Assembly (NCBI RefSeq): GCF_026151205.1
Contig: NC_087080.1
Location: 2,459,096 to 2,523,095 of the forward strand
DNA length: 64,000 bases
Direction of reading: 5' to 3'
Source: Bolinopsis microptera
Lineage: Eukaryota > Ctenophora > Tentaculata > Lobata > Bolinopsidae
Part shown: piece by piece, positions 7,562 through 33,174 of the stretch
Layout of the letters: every line of letters begins with the position of its first letter
Numbering within the stretch: the stretch's first letter is position 1
Position numbers and translations under genes: made by a program
Notes under the pieces: generated by a model
The model's database searches: none
What the model was told of the DNA's origin: nothing
The model's input: only the letters and a program-made list of their open reading frames with translations

Positions 7562-8743
7562 CAGAGGCACGTATTAGGTGCGATGGGTGCGGGATCGCAC
7601 AATTTACCGTTTTCCGCACATTTCCGCATAATTTATTGTTTTCCGCACATTATGTAATTTTCTGCATATTTCCGCATAATCTAGCAATTTCCGCGTAATT
7701 TCGCATAATTTTGAAATTTTCGCGTTAAGATATTCGAGTGTAAAAACCAAAATATGTTAAAAGTCGGGCCCTTTTAGGACCGTGACTCAGGCCCTTTTAA
7801 GACCGTGACTCAGGCCCTTTCGGGACCGTGACCCAGGCCCTTTTGGAACTCATACCTAGGCCACGTGACCCAGTTACCACGTGACCCAGGCCCTTTCGGG
7901 ACCGTGACCCAGGCCCTTTCGGAACCGTGACCCAGGCCCTTTCGGGACCCTGACCCAGGCCCTTTTGGAACTCATACCTAGGCCACGTGACCCAGTTACC
8001 ACGTGACCCAGGCCATTTCGGGACCCTGACCCAGGCCCTTTCGGGACCGTGACCCAGGCCCTTTTGGAACTCATGCCTAGGCCACGTGACCCGGTTACCA
8101 CGTGACCCAGGCCCTTTCGGGACAATGACCCAGGCCCTTTCGGGACCGTTACCCAGGCCCTTTCGGGACCGTGACCCTGGCCGTTATGGAACCCTCGTCG
8201 TTACCGTACTTCGATCATACTTGCAGCCCTTTTTATCGGGTAATGAGCTCTATTCGTTGTAACTTGTAGCGTTGGCTCTATAGTGGGCTTAATGGATCTT
8301 GGATCAAATGGTTTACAAGTACTGACGATCAATGCCAACAAGCGTGTCACATATTTGCGATCACGCATGGGATCTGATCGACTCTATCAAGAGGCGTCTT
8401 CAAATAACTGTCTCCTGATCTCTACCAGATCAAGTCACTGTTCTCAGATAACTGAATCTCAATATAGGTTCAATCATGGTCTTAGTAAAGAACTACACCC
8501 TCAGTAACACATAAACAGACCTATTTTTGATAAGAGCGGCGGTTATACGTTTAGAATTTCCAAAGTCCTTCAGAAAATGCAAAAGAAAACCGCACAATTC
8601 CCGCACAAATTTCGAAAAAATCGTCGCACATTTGCCGCATAATTGGTAAAAATTTACCGCACCTCACCGCACATTTTACCTTTATAGTCGGGTGCGGTAC
8701 CGCATAATTTCGATTTTTTTACCGCACCTAATATGTGCCTCTG
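7562..8743. mobile_element. 1,182-bp non-autonomous hAT-like element with 8-bp target duplication
   Basis: The ends are inverted: CAGAGGCACGTATTAGGTGC on the left and the complement of CAGAGGCACATATTAGGTGC on the right, one mismatch in 20. Both sides are flanked by ATCCTCGC (7554-7561 and 8744-8751). An 8-bp duplication and CAGAGG termini fit the hAT superfamily. Subterminal regions at about 7590-7720 and 8570-8720 are full of ccgcataat and ccgcacatt words on both strands, as expected of transposase-binding repeats. There is no transposase frame inside; the middle is minisatellite plus about 370 bp of unique sequence (8196-8565). Confidence 0.9.
7765..8195 (+). repeat. GC-rich 23-bp minisatellite with higher-order structure inside the hAT-like element
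   Basis: The basic unit is close to CAGGCCCTTTCGGGACCGTGACC. Some units are replaced by a longer block with GGAACTCATACCTAGGCCACG and two CACGTGACC words; that block recurs at about 7840, 7961 and 8060. The open frame on the minus strand here (7874-8125) is only the repeat read in phase and is not a gene. Confidence 0.85.
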
Positions 8744-10680: not shown

Positions 10681-10880
10681 TCCGTTTGTAACGTGTTACA
10701 GGTGTAACATTTGAGAATTTGTAATACCCGTAACGTGTTACGGGTGTAACATTTGAGAATTTGTTATACCCGTAACGTGTTACGGGTGTAACACCCGTAA
10801 TGCGTTACGGGTGTAACATTTGAGAATTTGTTACACCCGTAATGCGTTACGGGTGTAACAGAAATCGTTACGGGTGTAAC
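10681..10880 (+). repeat. 42-bp tandem repeat made of nested palindromes
   Basis: Units start at about 10689, 10731, 10773 and 10840 with one shortened step. Each carries ACCCGTAACGTGTTACGGGT or a close variant, then a TTTGAGAATTTG spacer. At 10830-10859 the arms GTTACACCCGTAA and TTACGGGTGTAAC are perfect 13-bp complements around TGCG. At 10779-10799 TTACGGGTG and CACCCGTAA flank TAA. The array is CpG-rich in otherwise AT-rich DNA. Confidence 0.88.
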
Positions 10881-11191
10881 ACACTTAATTGCCAATCACT
10901 CATTAATTGGTGGGGCAAAATCTGACCCCTATACAGATTTAAGTAGAACAACTAACCCGATTTATCATAGTGTAATTTTTTTCGTTCTATGACCAATTTT
11001 CAAATCCCGTGTTTTTTGGGTCGGTTTTGATGAGAATCACCCATGAGTATATATATACAATATATTGTATACATGAGTATATATATATATATTGAGTAAT
11101 TCGAACAATTGAAACAAATCAAATTGGCGGGCAAACGATCCGTTTCATGATATGTATAAAAACAATACCAATCATCAGTGCCAAATAGAAT

Positions 11192-25233: not shown

Positions 25234-28200
25234 ATGAATCTACTTGCTTTCATTCTAACGTGTTGGTTACTTAATCGAACTAAAGAAACAAGTAAGACAT
25301 ATTCATAGTTAATTATACTAGTTGAAGTTAATTAAAATTATTATGAATTGGTCCGTATCAGATGATTTTGAACAATTTTATGATTATGATGACATTGCTT
25401 TTTGAGTTCATAGCTTAGTACAAATGTGCAAGTTTGAATAAGATATATAAAGATCTGAGGCAAACAGATATAGTAGAGTAGGGCCAAAATTAAGACAGCA
25501 AAGTATGCCACTTTTGGCCCCCAGTGTGATATAATTATAAACTGAAGCCGTGAAATTTAACGACAAGCTTGAAAACGTGTTTTTTACAGAGAGAGTTCAA
25601 TTTGAATTATACAGATGGAATGGACTTCCTAGTAAAGCCACGGTTGGAATTGTTGTTGCTAGAACATCCACAGAGGTATTTTCTTGACTTATATTTTAAT
25701 TATACCACTATTTATAAATTAAAGGTATGTAATATAATGGATGCAAGAAATAGTTGCGACTACTACCACCTCACTGGAGATATATTTAAATTAGTAATTG
25801 AGTTTGTAATTTGTGTTACAAAACTGGTTACAAAAATCAGCGAATAAATTCGTAAATATATTATAAACAATACAAATTTTATATATTGTTGTTCTTCATG
25901 TGATGGTTGAGACAACAGATATCATTACAGGTAGTGACAGTCGCTGTCTCGAGTGTCACAGACCACATCGCAGATTTGATATGCAAGGATATGGGATTTA
26001 ATCATTCTGTGGATTAGTTTGGTTTGGTTATGTTCTATAGACTTAGGAAAGGAAATTTGAATGACAATACCATTAATGATAGGTTAAAGGCATATAAAAG
26101 ATGGTAAGTAAATTCGCACTAGTGCAAAGACAAAATAGTTATTTTACCAAGTTACTTTGTTGAGCTTCCTTAACAAGGCCAATAGTGTAGAACGTATGTC
26201 ATTAAAATCTAAGTGAAGATTGACATCTTTCATACAGACAGACAGAGGAAGGTTATGTCTCAGTGACATGGGGCACTTTAAAGTTTTATTAAGGTATAGC
26301 TATGCTGGGAAACTACGAACCCACTCCAGCCAGTTTACCGCTTTTACCTGATTATAAAGCGAGGGAACCACAATAATGCAACTAAAGTTCATTATCTTTT
26401 AATATGTAGTTAGTGTACTCTTATCTCTATGGTTAGTAGATAGGCTAAGTCCCAACAACTTAGAAGCATTAAGAAAACGGTCAACCCTGGTCACTGTTCA
26501 CCAATTTACTTGCTTTAAGGCGACCTCGGAGTTTCGACGTTGTCTTTCCAAAGCTTTTGTTTGCCTTAAGCCCCAAAACAATTAACATGCCTGCGTTTTC
26601 CACCCGGTGTTCCAAAGGATGTCTGCAGATATGAGCGGTGGTTGGTTTCCACCCTGCCCTCTTGATCCATGGTCGGGTTCCAACTTTTTTTTTTAATCTC
26701 ACACTTATTTTACTTCGGAGTATTCCAACAGCCACATTGTTACACAATTGTAACTAGCCAATTACAGGAAGCCGAAGGATTTAATTAGGCCAGTGACGGT
26801 TAAGGTAGTGTGTACCATACTTTCTTCGCCCGAGACTTCGCTGCAATGGACAGCTTCTCATTTAACCCTCACACACGATTTCTCGAATATTCGGCTGAGT
26901 AGACCGGGGGGCTGCATAGACCACTCAGGATCTTTAGCTGAATGTCGACGACACTCACCCCACGACTAGGCAGGCAGTGGGTTTCGAACTCGCAATCTCA
27001 CGATTACAAATCCGATGATTAACCAACTACGCTACCTGGCCGTTAAAAAACGAAAACGAAATTTTTTCGTCCCTGGATATGTCCAGACTCCAGCCAATGG
27101 CATTATTTGGTCCTGTAATTCTAAACTCACACTAGGGAACAAGGCAACGAGTTCCTTTCTGGTTCGGTGTTCTCTCCACTAGTATATCATGTTTATTTTA
27201 TTCAAGTTTTGGTTAGACTTTAATAAGTGGCATAAATTGAACGTTTTGTTCGACTGGAGTTCCCTGTTTTCTACCTTAAACTGCAATCTTTGTCCTTACC
27301 TTTATCTGTAGCACCAATCTGTGAGTAAACAATTCAGGTACATTTCACTGGTTGAAGAACAAGAAAATACTCCACAAAACCTCCGGAAATTCGAAAATCG
27401 CTTACAAGGAACAAAAGCAATGGATAATATTATCTGTGGTAAAAGTGAACGAAATTTCGATGAATGCCCTATTTATTCGATTGGGGAAAATAACAGTGAT
27501 TATAGATTGGGGCTTGCTTGTGTACCAAAACCCGGTAAGACTGAATTTGGTAATTTTTAAGGGGCTTTATCTTATGTTAACTGATGTTCCGTTTTCAAAG
27601 ATTGATTATTAGCCATCATTCAAATAGATTGTATCAAAAACACAATATAGAAACTACGCTATTTATGGTCATTGTAAAGTTTGCTTTGCCCAAATTTGAC
27701 TGCCAAAATTGGTACAATTTGACCGGTTGAGCTATTTAGTGAGCTAGCATGCCACCTGGTGTTCACCCTTTGTTAATATTTCACCCAGATGGAAACAAAT
27801 GTTCACTGGACACTTTAACATGTAATCTATATGGGTTACTCAGCCAATGTGGAGCATATCAGTGCTTCAAAGTGACATTTTAAAACTTTTTGCAATCTCG
27901 TTGGTAACTGAATCTGGCAGTCAAAACAGGTTGAGACTCTCAGAAAAAGGTCCCATCTACACAGAAAGCCCCGGTTGAGACAACTTTTAATGCTCAGCCT
28001 GTGTGGAGCAGTAGCTTGAAAGTTAGGCAATTTTCAAGACCAAAAATCATACGCTAAACAGTCAAGTTTTTGGTTGAACCTCTATGAACTTTTTAGCTGA
28101 AACCCCTCTCAAGAGTTTTTGACTATTTGCGATAACACACCATGTCTCAACCGACGTGGAGCGAGGTTTTGGCAATGTAGAAATTTGTAAATTTTTAATT

Positions 28201-31200
28201 TATTAGCTTTTCATAATGCTTTTGTTTAGATCTGTAAGATTTTTTTAGCTTGGTAACTCTTACTAACTCTATTTTGAGTACTGAAACGGATATTTATATT
28301 CAGTACACTTTTCTCAACCCTGTGGAGCCCAAAATGGTTAAAAATTTGCCAACTTTTAAATTCTTTCTGGGTTGAGATAAAGTGACTTCTGTGATTTACA
28401 TCTTGACTCCTGTATCTATATTTTCACCGTTGATGCAGACTCTTTAGTCGAGAACAGCCTATCTCAACCATGTGGAGCAAAAAGAGGTCTTCCTTTTGAT
28501 CAATCGAGACAACTTTTAAGTGCTTCATGGGATATTATTTTTATTCATTCTAGAGAAAATATGTTATAATATTGGTGGTCAATAAACTTACTTCACGGGA
28601 ACTATTCAGTGCTCAACCTGTGTGGAGCAGAGATGATTTCTGTTGTATTAGATTTTCGAAGCTCACTACTTCATTCTACAGCCGCATGCAAGAGAGATCT
28701 TCATCAAATGTTAGGCAGTTGAGGAATCCCGTACATGACATGTCATTTCTAGCTCTGCTCCACTCTGGATGAACAGTTCTGGAACATCAATCATGGCCCA
28801 ATCATGGTAAGAAAAGTATTTAAAGTATATCAGTAAACTTTAAATTGCATTACGTACAAATTGGCTACAGATCGACCATCATGGAGACTCTTTTTACCGT
28901 AGAAAAGCCTGTTGCTCCTCACGGTTGAGCATATTGTCTTTTTCTATGGTGGCATATTTCTCTTTAAAGGACACAGTACTACATACATCAACAGCTTCTT
29001 AAGTATTGATAATATCATTCCTCCTTTATCCTAATATAACAACACTGATCCTTACAAATAGTTGTGTTATCAATCTATCATTCCATTCTGCTCCTCTCTG
29101 GTTGAGCCTATTAAATACAATTTTTCAATCTGTTCTGCTAGTAATTTATTGTAAAAGCTAAAATACTCATTCTAATTTCTCATCCAAGTCATATCAGCCG
29201 ATGAGGAGTCATGTTATGCAGTAAAAGTCCTCTGCTCCACATGGTTGAGCATTACTAGGTTTATCAGCAGTTCCAAAGAATAGAGTCAGGGGGTCTGAAC
29301 ATAATCACAAGAAAAAATGATATTTTTATGGCCTGATTAGATATATTTATCGTTTTTAATCACACTCACTTTCAAAACTCAGTTTCTTCCCAATCAGTAT
29401 TTCCAACTAAGGTATAATAGTTTCGTGCTCCGCATCGGTTGAGCAAGGTGTACCATTATTGATAATGTTATCTGGTGCGTATTCCTTTAAACTAAGATTT
29501 TGTGAAAAGACGGAGATTCTACTGTAATGTTTACCCCTGGTTGAGACGAAAAATATGAGGATATTTCGACTGCTCCACACTGGCTGAGGTCCATTTTATG
29601 ATTTGGCAGTGAAAATATTTTGCAATTAACGTCCAGGATCTATTTGTTAAATGGCGATCAAAATAGTCAAAAAGCATAGATTTTATTGGGGTGCTCCACA
29701 CTTTTTTGCTCCACATCGAAAACCAGGTCACAACTTTTGCTCCACATGAGATAGAAACTTCATTCCAAAGAATTCAGAAAATTCGGAATCTTCAGATGAA
29801 AATGATATCAGAAAGGATTAAATTGCTCTTTATCAACCTGCTCAAAAATTTAAATCAAAAAGTAAGCAAAATGGGCAAAGCAAAATTGACAATGACCTTA
29901 TACACGTTTATTAATAATTTTACATCCGAACAAGAATTATTTTTTCCAGGAGATTGCACCTTTGTCCAAAAAGGGGTTTTTATAAAAAACCTTTGTTACC
30001 GGGATGAACAATACGAACTTTACAAATGTCCTGACATGTCCACATATTACACTTCTGAGCTCATCGGTGAAAATTACGAAAAAATGTCGAGTTACGTGAC
30101 GATTAGCCGTGCAACGAAAAAGTGCCCCGATGATCCTCGTGGATACCAAAAATGTTTTGGTAGGTTGCATAATAAGAAGTTAGGCAACATCTCAATACCT
30201 TTCTGCAGAGGATACTTCAAAAAATATATCAACATAGGAGATAGGTTCATGTACGAGCTGGAACAGACATATGGCACAGATAGTAAGTATAATAATGATG
30301 GCCCTGATAGTATAAGTAAATGTGATGGAATCTGTAATGATCGTAATTGTCTTGATGAAGCATCCTGTAATGGTTTCTATTACGGGCTTTACTGTGGTGG
30401 CATCACTTCTAGGGCTTCTAATACATTATATGTTAGCCCTGTGCAAATATGTGACGGCAAATCTGATTGTATAAATGAGGAGGACGAAGCTGGATGTTTA
30501 GAATTCAGTATTAAAACGGATGGTTTAAATCGCAATTATTCTAGTGAAGTTGGAAGTTTAGACCAGGTTAAGAAGTCGGAATGGTGCATCAATTCAGGGA
30601 ATAGCGAGATATTTAAAAAACAGATACACAACTTTACCCGATGTTCCTCACTTAATTATTATAACAAGGGATTTATTTCATTTTGTAAATACTTTTACGA
30701 CCAAACTAATTGCTCGGATCCTATGAGAGGAGTGGTCCCCTGCCTAATTGACGGCAGGTCATCTACGGTGTCGAATTTTGCCACTTGTATGCAAAAGCCT
30801 GGTCTATGCGATGATGGATTTGACAACCTCTGTGTGAAAACTTCTGTTTTATGCTACGTTCACAAACACCAACTATGTGATGGAATATTGGACTGTTCTG
30901 ATGAAAGTGACGAAACATACAGAATCTGTACATCAATGACTGTATCTAAGTGTTACCGTAGATATCGACACAAGACAAAACTCCCCATACCTATCAGCTG
31001 GCTGGGAGACGGATTTGAAGATTGTAAAAATGGAGACGACGAAAAAGACATTTGGCCAAAATGTGGAGTCGGTGAATGGTCTCATTTTGTAATCGACAAC
31101 AGTAAATGTGAAGATGTCTTTAAGTGCAGCGTCAGGTCATCGGAATTTGTGCAATTCCAAAGTTTGTGTCATGGTCTCAACATCTGTGATCATGAAAGAA

Positions 31201-33174
31201 TATGCAGTAAAACCAGGAAACATGAGCATATTTATGAAAAACCGATTGCCATCGGAGGAGAAAAACCATTAGAATTTCTTGTGCATTGTTTACCGGGTGT
31301 CATTAAAAGTCTAGGCCACTACATATCACCATGTGTCAAATATGACTTCACACCATTGCAGATTTTTGGATCAATTGAACCAACAGCATCATTAATGTTA
31401 CCCAAAATAGCTAGAGACTGTAGAAACGTATTCGGAAAAGTATACATTTATCTCAGCTGTTCCAACAAATGCACTGACCAACCTACATGTCCTTTAAAAC
31501 CACTTAACTTTGATTCTTGTGAAATTGAAAATCAATTTAAAGACAGGATATACACAATGAATATGAAGAACAAGAATCAACTCACCTTTTTGATTAAAAA
31601 CGAAAGAAGTGGAGAATACGAACAAAGAAACTTCCGATGCAAGAATGATCGATGCATCAGCTTCGAAAAAGTTTGCAACTTGCTTGACGAATGTAATGAT
31701 GGCTCAGACGAAGAAAATTGCTCAAACAACTACGCTTGTGACACTCCAAAGCATTACATAAGACACAATCAAAAATGTGATGGACAAATAGACTGTGATG
31801 ACTACACCGACGAATGCAATGAACAGTGTGGTATGACCATCATACCTAACAACTCAATGGAGGTGTTCAGTTGGGTCATTGGTTGTGCAGCAGTTATCTT
31901 AAATTCCATAAAGATTTTTAAAAGTCTCAGGCTACTGGCCACAAAAACATTTACCTCTGCTCAGAACAATAAGGCATTGACATGTGTCATTCATGTCGGT
32001 GATCTGATTACAGGATCTTACCTTATCACAATTGCAATCGTAAACTCGTATGTATATGGGAATTCATTCTGCAAAAAAAAGAGCTAATTGGTTGTCAAGC
32101 GATGAGTGTGCATTTTTAGGAGTCTTTAGTACATTTGGAAGTCAAATATCACTCTTTTCTATGACCTGCCTCAGTATTTTCCGTGCTCTTGGCGTGATCA
32201 AAGTTCAAAAGATTACATCTAAAAATGCGGCCGCCAAAATGGCAATCCTCATTCTGATAATGGGAGTAGCATCATTTTTTTGGGCATATATTCCTTTAAT
32301 GACGTTTAGTGAGGACTTCTTTGTTAACGGTATGACTTATAATCCAAAAATCAAAGCATTTTCTGCGTTTGTTAACAAAGAAAGACACATTAACATTATA
32401 AAATTATATTTTGGAAGGATATCTATCTCAGCAGTCTCCACTTGGGCTAAGATTAATCATTTGATTGGCGATATGTTTTCCAAACAATATGACGGGATAG
32501 GACGAAGGAAGATTCACTTCTATGGTAACGATGGTGTCTGTCTTTTCAAATACTTTGTTTCGAGAAATGACTCCCAAAAAGCATATGTTTGGACAAATCT
32601 TTTGCTTAACTTGCTATGCTTTTCAATTATTTTCGTCTGTTACATCAAAGTCCTGTTTTTTTCTAAGTGCTCTAGAAAACGCAGGAACAGAAACATGGAA
32701 CAAAACAGACGGGCCAGAGATAAACAAGAGACAGAGAGATACATTGCCATAATAATCGTGACAGATTTTCTATGTTGGATCCCGTTCATCTTGGTGTGTA
32801 TGCTGCACTATTTTGAAGTTATGGACGCAACAGCCCTGTATCCAATATCGTCTATTGTGATTCTCCCAATAAACTCTGTGATAAATCCTCTCCTTTACAA
32901 CAACTACATTACCCGCATAGTCAAAACAATATTGAATTGGCTAACTCTAGTATACATGTTCTTGTTGAGAATATTGGTTTCAGATGCTGAAAAAAAAACA
33001 ATCAAGGGACAATGCAGAAAGCAGGAAGACATTAAATTGGATCAACAACCAATCACGAAACCAGAGCATAACATGGGCCAGAAAGACGCAGACATTGAAA
33101 GGGATTGCATTATTCTACATAGGATGAGAACGATAACTAAAAAATCTGTTGACAAAATTGACATTCAAAAATAG
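25234..33174 (+). CDS. LDLa-rich class A G-protein-coupled receptor, four coding exons, one frame break
   Basis: Coding exons: 25234-25291 (signal peptide MNLLAFILTCWLLN), 25590-25675, 27312-27534 and 29950-33174. Phases agree at every junction (1, 0, 1). The open frame at 29691-29949 before the last exon is excluded because the acceptor TTTTTTCCAG at 29949 joins the 27534 donor in phase. The ectodomain is about 750 residues and Cys-rich, with LDL-receptor class A repeats, then seven membrane segments. It resembles the relaxin-receptor/LGR group in architecture but no leucine-rich repeats are seen. At 32073-32080 a run of eight A shifts the frame by one; seven would read through. That could be a real null allele or a sequencing error. 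Introns contain a SINE and a striking periodic motif array. The 3' untranslated end is not defined. Confidence 0.82.
26685..27041 (-). mobile_element. tRNA-derived SINE, copy 1 (in receptor intron 2)
   Basis: On the minus strand it starts GGCCAGGTAGCGTAGTTGGT (A box) with a B box GAGTTCGAAACCC. The head folds like a tRNA. A ~250-base body follows (TTAAATGAGAAGC, TCTCGGGCGAAGAAAG, CCTTCGGCTTCCTGTAATTG) and it ends in an A-tail of ten at 26685-26694. It matches the copy at 44011 almost throughout the shared parts and is the longer one. Confidence 0.92.
27839..29746. repeat. ~150-bp periodic array of a 16-17-bp imperfect palindrome in receptor intron 3
   Basis: Consensus CTCAACC(n)TGTGGAGC and its complement GCTCCACA(n)GGTTGAG. 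Forward copies start at 27839, 27993, 28146, 28313, 28463 and 28612. Reverse copies start at 28757, 28914, 29090, 29234, 29427 and 29572; three half-copies GCTCCACA lie at 29693, 29708 and 29739. Start-to-start steps are 154, 153, 167, 150, 149, 145, 157, 176, 144, 193, 145 and 121. DNA between copies looks unrelated. The orientation flips once near 28,690, so copies pair off at nearly equal distances from that centre. Each copy could itself form a short stem (GCTCCAC with GTTGAGC, one mismatch). Extra GGTTGAGA half-words occur at about 27930, 27974, 28372 and 29537. Function unknown; dimeric protein sites or RNA pairing rungs are possible. Confidence 0.9.
29950..33174 (+). CDS. Main receptor exon: ectodomain and seven transmembrane segments
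   Basis: LDLa-type blocks: CDGKSDCINEEDEAGC (30448-30500), CDGILDCSDESDE (30876-30914), FRCKNDRCISFEKVC through CNDGSDEENC (31633-31722) and CDGQIDCDDYTDEC (31774-31817), each with the acidic calcium-binding pattern. Another block at 30319-30396 (CDGICNDRNCLDEASC) is unlike standard LDLa. Membrane segments: TM1 about 31862-31920, TM2 31981-32058, TM3 32107-32190, TM4 32239-32300, TM5 32584-32660, TM6 32740-32820, TM7 32835-32915. TM6 has FLCWIP and TM7 ends INPLLY, the class A CWxP and NPxxY signatures. The DRY position after TM3 reads FRALG, so the Asp/Glu is absent. The loop between TM4 and TM5 is long (about 90 residues). The tail is lysine-rich. Confidence 0.85.

Follow-up and report, generated by a model that had tools for sequence, protein, structure and literature searches.

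DNA transposons of the CACTA type (En/Spm, Tam1, and soybean Tgm) carry many direct and inverted copies of a short, palindrome-forming motif that acts in cis in both subterminal regions; in the account given in PMC2613891, these subterminal repeats are bound by TNPA-like proteins, and non-autonomous derivatives can be mobile if the repeats are kept. Elements of the Sleeping Beauty type, with inverted repeat/direct repeat (IR/DR) ends, position two or more transposase sites at fixed places in each end and show a one-sided half-site enhancer, unequal ends, and ordered assembly (as outlined in PMC7827188). Both are resembled by an array within a 64,000-nucleotide stretch of the genome of the ctenophore Bolinopsis microptera (NC_087080.1, positions 2,459,096 to 2,523,095; the whole stretch is called the window), which an initial annotation had described as a periodic, mirror-oriented series of palindromic motifs in the intron of a receptor gene. 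The array is the interior of a recently inserted terminal inverted repeat (TIR) DNA transposon, designated family A, and not a feature of the receptor intron. The insertion and its surroundings comprise the following.

27667..29897, + strand: family A, a TIR DNA transposon of 2,231 bp without an evident coding region; the left is the short-lead (S) end and the right the long-lead (L) end
27663..27666, no strand: left target-site duplication, TTAT
29898..29901, no strand: right target-site duplication, TTAT (present once in the paralogue without the insertion, L033/L060)
27667..27691, + strand: left TIR (arms of 29 nt, 90% complementary, counted from 27664 and so with three flanking bases)
29873..29897, − strand: right TIR
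27535..29949, + strand: host intron with the insertion, in an LDLa plus seven-transmembrane (7TM) receptor-like gene (splice borders placed by eye against the paralogue; LDLa domain in the exon)

Family A inserted as a unit. The sequence from 27667 to 29897 recurs at other loci, mostly at 98.7%–99.6% identity, with 15 near-full, both-ended copies including that in the window; three of these are interrupted by inserts (one copy was read from L028 and L041). The copies terminate in GGTCATTG and CAATGACC, that is, GGTCA...TGACC, and all 15 are flanked by matching 4-bp target duplications—atat five times; aaat, ttat, and ttaa twice each; and atac, atgt, ataa, and atag once each—of which 12 have TA at their centre. 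The paralogue of the receptor gene at C9:2.18 Mb is an uninterrupted, empty site with one TTAT; among families A, B, and C (the latter two described below), an empty site is seen for family A only. Because the copies have matching duplications and a paralogous site stands empty, the array is concluded to have come by transposition. It cannot, then, be regarded as a property of the receptor intron, as it arrived within a transposon that has 14 other near-full, both-ended copies, and the C9 paralogue is without it. Homologues of the receptor combine LDLa and 7TM domains (PF00057 + PF00001). No open reading frame (ORF) longer than 80 aa lies wholly within the element, and the single longer frame that touches it (29667–32087, 806 aa) continues into a receptor exon. 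Family A is also present as a right-end fragment (C9:1737491) and as a deletion form of 412 bp. The latter occupies two places, which represent one insertion because they share flanks; it is bordered by a perfect duplication in one of them and by a duplication with a single mismatch in the second.

Within the element, the pattern TCAACC(N1-3)GTGGAG with at most one mismatch is found at 12 sites in 1.75 kb (window 27839–29588), six on the + strand followed by six on the − strand. Dinucleotide shuffles of the element contain a mean of 0.015 such sites and at most one (200 shuffles), and the 64-kb window outside the element contains none at the same threshold. The consensus, roughly GCTCAACC(n1-2)GGTGGAGC, is semi-palindromic. 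Sites and half-sites are listed below, with distances from the element end counted to the start of GTGGAG.

27839..27855, + strand: site 1, GTGGAG 183 from the S end
27993..28009, + strand: site 2, 337 from the S end
28146..28162, + strand: site 3, 490 from the S end
28313..28328, + strand: site 4, 656 from the S end
28463..28478, + strand: site 5, 806 from the S end
28612..28628, + strand: site 6, 956 from the S end
28757..28773, − strand: site 7, 1135 from the L end
28914..28929, − strand: site 8, 978 from the L end
29090..29106, − strand: site 9, 802 from the L end
29234..29249, − strand: site 10, 658 from the L end
29427..29443, − strand: site 11, as GCGGAG, 465 from the L end
29572..29588, − strand: site 12, 320 from the L end
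29694..29699, − strand: half-site GTGGAG, 199 from the L end (counterparts B 197, C 206)
29709..29714, − strand: half-site GTGGAG, 184 from the L end (counterparts B 183, C 193)
29740..29745, − strand: half-site GTGGAG, 153 from the L end (GTGGAG counterpart absent from B and C)
29539..29544, − strand: half-site TCAACC, 354 from the L end (counterparts B 351, C 361)
27973..27978, + strand: half-site GGTTGA, 307 from the S end (counterparts B 307, C 308)

The initial annotation, which had counted 12 full and three half copies (the three GTGGAG half-sites of the − strand), six facing one way and the next six the other, is confirmed in these respects. Its spacing of 144–193 bp is also upheld, at 143.5–193.5 bp with a coefficient of variation of 0.099, a regularity equalled by none of 200,000 random placements. 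The palindromic motif is real, although its length is 16 or 17 bp rather than a uniform 17 bp, and the mirror symmetry about position 28,690 is approximate only: conservation applies instead to the distance from each element end, with one series at the S end (183, 337, 490...) and another at the L end (184, 199, 320, 465, 658...). The DNA between the sites, which had been called unrelated, is indeed hardly alike from one spacer to the next (mean z of 0.18 by local and 0.27 by global alignment over 45 pairs); four of the 45 pairs reach p ≤ 0.05 by each measure, and the top single pair has a local z of 4.8. A genome-wide motif search, which the initial annotation had proposed, returned 44 exact occurrences of the 16-bp form and none of its control, and 43 of these lie, by our own count, inside copies of family A. 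The remaining one is solitary, at G000:C13:6250014, where the locus (L054) has no match to the element.

Allowing two mismatches, the motif search yielded 93 matches against 9 for the control and brought further motif clusters to light, among them two more families with the same GGTCA ends and the same motif. Family B is represented by an element of 2,281 bp with the duplication TTAT (L062) and family C by one of 1,531 bp with the duplication ATAT (L064); the TIR of B is a 35-nt match at 97%, three flanking bases included, and that of C is 27 bp at 100%. Between families, blastn finds motif-scale matches plus a few short ones of up to 54 bp. The TCAACC arm faces outward at every site of A, and the same rule holds in B and C apart from a single interleaved site in each (1088 and 723, respectively). 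Of family B there are two full copies that arose independently, together with a deletion variant found at four places (L066–L069). These four share flanks and so count as one insertion, which implies genomic repetition of the surrounding host segment. Among the 40 of 65 candidates that were scored, family C has 39 full-length copies without interruption, besides one that a further C copy has split and one that is partial. In a separate observation at G000:C6:16055395-16058463, one family C copy lies inside another, near its middle and in the opposite orientation. Duplications match in all three B insertions and in two of the three C copies that were cut out, the third (L070) having the unmatched pair TTCT/ATCT.

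Pattern searches of the genome returned the same three families. The TIR pattern of A occurs at 35 places, all in known copies; a looser version added 23 places with two or three mismatches, which are attributed to chance, the control giving 27 hits. The TIR pattern of B gives six pairs; a paired-site search gives 62 places, made up of A, B, and one at C12:3675077 that resembles family C by eye; and an L-end pattern gives 59 (control 2), of which 58 are C and one is B, again by eye. No new family is present among the TIR, paired-site, and L-end matches; one further genome search produced 341 matches (control 27), and other families may hide among those outside the part listed.

The positions of the outer sites relative to the element ends are shared by the three families. 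Positions for B and C were taken from one copy each and checked on five further B and two further C copies, all three families coming from one genome. At the S end, sites lie at 183, 337, 490, 656, 806, and 956 in A; at 183, 336, 489, 654, 809, and 950 in B; and at 183, 337, 489, and 643 in C, with a GGTTGA half-site at 307, 307, and 308, respectively. The first three S-end sites thus agree to 0–1 bp. At the L end, the positions are 184, 199, 320, 465, and 658 in A; 183, 197, 318, 463, and 656 in B; and 193, 206, 329, 471, and 664 in C, with a TCAACC half-site at 354, 351, and 361; these five positions agree to 0–3 bp after a 9-bp offset in C (the raw offset is 8–10 bp). Further inward, the positions drift, with the fourth S-end site at 656, 654, and 643 and an L-end site at 802, 821, and 828 in A, B, and C. 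Of all 6-mers scanned over positions 46–700, the three families have eight in common at the S end and, with C shifted by 9, three at the L end, each within 2 bp, against a mean of 0.01 and a maximum of one for 1,422 other shifts; by eye, 10 of these 11 are or overlap pieces of the motif, and the remaining one is AAATTT. Pairwise, 24, 17, and 15 6-mers are shared at the S end (10, 9, and 8 of them motif-derived) and 20, 13, and 23 at the L end (13, 7, and 15), while other shifts give means of 1.4–2.0 and maxima of 8–15.

These distances are kept while the DNA between the sites has eroded. In register, between-family spacer identity is 26%–44%, compared with 27%–31% in shuffles, and, as aligned here, the spacers are almost, though not wholly, without remaining likeness. 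Six indels accompany 113 substitutions, or 112 in the binned total, among 11 family A copies (L046 left out). With neutral indels simulated at that ratio, 13–52 are expected per end between families at 0.5–1.5 substitutions per site; for the interval differences actually observed, P is at most ~5e-4 in every family pair.

The omitted copy, L046, offers a second view of constraint: 78 of its 89 differences fall at element positions 1000–1600, a 601-bp centre, and its ends resemble those of the other copies; this centre is chimeric, perhaps through gene conversion from an unseen subfamily. Only one change falls in the 66 site bases of this centre, where 8.6 are expected (p 0.003); to judge from these substitutions, the motif itself is protected between subfamilies. 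The selection on motif and spacing that the initial annotation had suggested is supported at the level of the mobile element.

The preferred reading, which is given a probability of roughly two in three, is that the array is a subterminal lattice of sites for a DNA-binding protein, transposon-encoded or recruited, within a recently active non-autonomous TIR DNA transposon. A transposase or TnpA-like accessory protein, produced by an autonomous element and supplied in trans, would occupy the sites; protein bound along each end would then be bridged to the other end, and the resulting synaptic complex would license cutting at the GGTCA termini, with the fixed spacing setting the geometry of the complex. 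The protein, its supply in trans, and synapsis are steps that we infer. Being the ones fixed between families, the three outer positions of the S end and the five of the L end would be the most important. The semi-palindromic form of the site suggests that the putative protein is a dimer, and as 16- and 17-bp sites would rotate the half-sites by ~35 degrees relative to one another, either a flexible dimer or independently binding halves would be needed.

Several observations weigh against this reading. The genome searches and the long copies examined revealed neither an autonomous element nor a transposase or binding protein, and at ~1 kb per end the lattice greatly exceeds familiar transposase-site regions in length. 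The 412-bp derivative of family A is without any full site, and the deletion variant of B lacks L-end positions 176–747, yet has matching duplications. Inward of the outer sites, positions differ by 13–19 bp or more, and the L-end sites A 153, B 62, C 52, and C 371, as well as the S-end site B 274, are unmatched between families. Individual copies depart from the lattice: L063 is shifted by +10 bp at the L end, with one half-site lost, and by 2–7 bp at the S end; L071, of family C, carries an additional 15 bp after S 183; and L046 is shifted by 5 bp at the L end. These breaks may, but need not, be changes that followed insertion. Across the 11 family A copies other than L046, the site bases (200 of the 2,231) received 8 of the 113 changes, against ~10 expected; selection following insertion is thus not apparent, as in dead copies. 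Spacers retain some similarity between families, with 5 of 12 comparisons at p ≤ 0.01 when ungapped, 8 of 12 by global alignment, and identities of up to 44%; finally, the indel rate of the simulation is drawn from only six indels among 11 copies.

The residual similarity of the spacers indicates that A, B, and C have a common ancestor and that ancestry is part of their positional agreement. Taken further, spacing might be unconstrained altogether, with few indels since that ancestor and the motif sequence alone kept, and the several spacers that still resemble each other between families, together with the 6-mers at fixed pairwise distances, some but not all of which come from the motif (10 of the 24 in the A–B comparison at the S end), speak for this. 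It is nonetheless improbable: the identity of 26%–44% implies ~1 substitution per site or more (Jukes–Cantor, by hand), at which the within-family rate predicts 26–52 indels per end, and P is no higher than stated above even at 0.5 per site; indels, moreover, do occur within families. An unlikely account, too, is that the sites bind a host factor—a zinc-finger silencer or a loop or architectural protein—which the elements exploit or by which they are restrained, the spacing reflecting chromatin geometry. Ctenophore looping has been linked to DNA transposons: in Mnemiopsis, as reported in PMC12221973, loop anchors are bound by the C2H2 proteins CTEP1 and CTEP2, and more than 90% of loop promoters have a DNA-transposon insertion. 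The Mnemiopsis loop motif is, by its description in the same source, GC-rich with two CpG, whereas the fixed arms of the present sites are without CpG; the variable site centre gives one or two CpG in some sites (e.g., TCAACCGCGGTGGAG in C). Positions fixed relative to the element ends, and differing between the two ends, are also a better fit to end recognition than to a host factor. One nucleosome per site, as the initial annotation had offered, is awkward, because a 153-bp period with a 147-bp core would leave only ~6 bp of linker in which to fit a 17-bp site.

That the transcript pairs + and − sites into a selected RNA ladder is very improbable. The minimum free energy (MFE) is well below that of full shuffles (z of −5.3 for A, −7.1 for B, and −6.5 for C), and the MFE fold of A pairs sites 2–12, 3–11, 5–10, and 6–9, which accounts for 8 of the 12 sites. 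However, when the spacers alone are shuffled, with motifs and TIRs kept, z is 0.04 (A), −1.42 (B), and −0.86 (C) over 24 shuffles each; the energy being unchanged, nothing beyond inverted motifs and TIRs is needed for the fold, and the case for a ladder is weakened. By eye, half-sites vary (e.g., GCGGAG or GAGGAG with TCAACC) without a matching change in their own partner arm; in addition, the L and S series are not mirror images. Rfam at gathering thresholds has no match in 27000–30500. A decayed tandem satellite of the host intron, which the initial annotation had already denied, would share the period near 150 bp, and has next to no probability: it is ruled out by the TIRs, target duplications, dispersed copies, empty site, and near absence of spacer-to-spacer similarity, and no tandem array is reported between 24,868 and 33,637 of the window.

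The long copies that were examined (L039, L040, and L055 of A; L065 of C) contain reverse-transcriptase (RT) ORFs as inserts, assigned by Pfam for L039 and L040, by homologues for L055, and by eye for L065. The L040 insert also has an endonuclease domain, and the inserted ORF of L055 matches Mnemiopsis proteins at up to 70% (residues 1–500). The L039 and L040 inserts interrupt family A within a few bp of each other, at the equivalent of window ~29139–29146, with their ORFs in opposite orientation relative to the element. The L039 insert has its own inverted repeats, starting CGGGTATCGGCC, and its RT ORF therefore seems to lie inside another element. Elsewhere in the window, tandem arrays with palindromic units occur at 7767–8182 (GGCCCTTTCGGGACC...) and 10688–10881 (GTAACGCGTTAC...).

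Short motifs are usually kept while the distances between them drift. Here, three families in one genome hold their outer distances within a few bp over hundreds of bp per end, with the intervening DNA near background. Should the lattice be the scaffold of a transpososome, the families would constitute a natural experiment on DNA geometry in transposition, with the permitted distances written in them; the pattern also supplies a sequence signature by which the autonomous element and its protein might be sought in ctenophores. A bolder version, which we regard as tentative and on balance doubtful, is that these elements form an undescribed ctenophore transposon group that measures its own ends with a ruler of ~9–12 sites, near bp-fixed over the outer 0.5–0.66 kb per end, along which a protein would wrap the DNA into one two-ended complex. 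Spacer sequence would then be free and spacer length fixed, by analogy with the 12/23 spacer of recombination signal sequences, at far larger scale.

No paper describing these elements was found in the literature searched, which is not proof of absence, and the known superfamilies differ in one or more respects. Compared with CACTA elements, the ends here are GGTCA, not CACTA, and the duplication is 4 bp, not 3 bp (following PMC2613891). Sites are ~150 bp apart over 0.6–1.2 kb per side, while those of soybean Tgmt* are packed into 159 and 732 bp (PMC2613891), and positions are here fixed between families. The CAC...GTG termini of CACTA/CMC, a rule stated for Chapaev in PMC4079192, do not correspond to GGTCA...TGACC, nor do the TGTNR termini of Ginger, for which PMC2836005 gives CCGG/CCGT or RTATAY targets. 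Kolobok and KolobokP, as described in PMC9587614, have 5′-RR...YY-3′ termini, which GG...CC fits, and KolobokP solo units have 3–5 bp duplications; canonical Kolobok has a TTAA target, and KolobokP has long terminal direct repeats of ~450 or ~660 bp. TTAA flanks 2 of the 15 A copies, and there are no such direct repeats in A (repeat scan) or in one B and one C copy (self-blast). Sola2 has AT-rich 4-bp duplications, ATAT and AAAT among them, and short TIRs, but fits by duplication only. No lattice is described for it in the available text of PMC3627910; no Sola2 transposase turned up here, although no search was aimed at one. Judged by their sequence, then, the ends fit none of the superfamilies compared, CACTA and Ginger being excluded by termini and canonical Kolobok by target. 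Sleeping Beauty has ~165 bp between its two DRs. It bears two sites per end, as against four or more in the elements described here, and has a TA target and a TIR of ~220 bp (PMC7827188, in outline).

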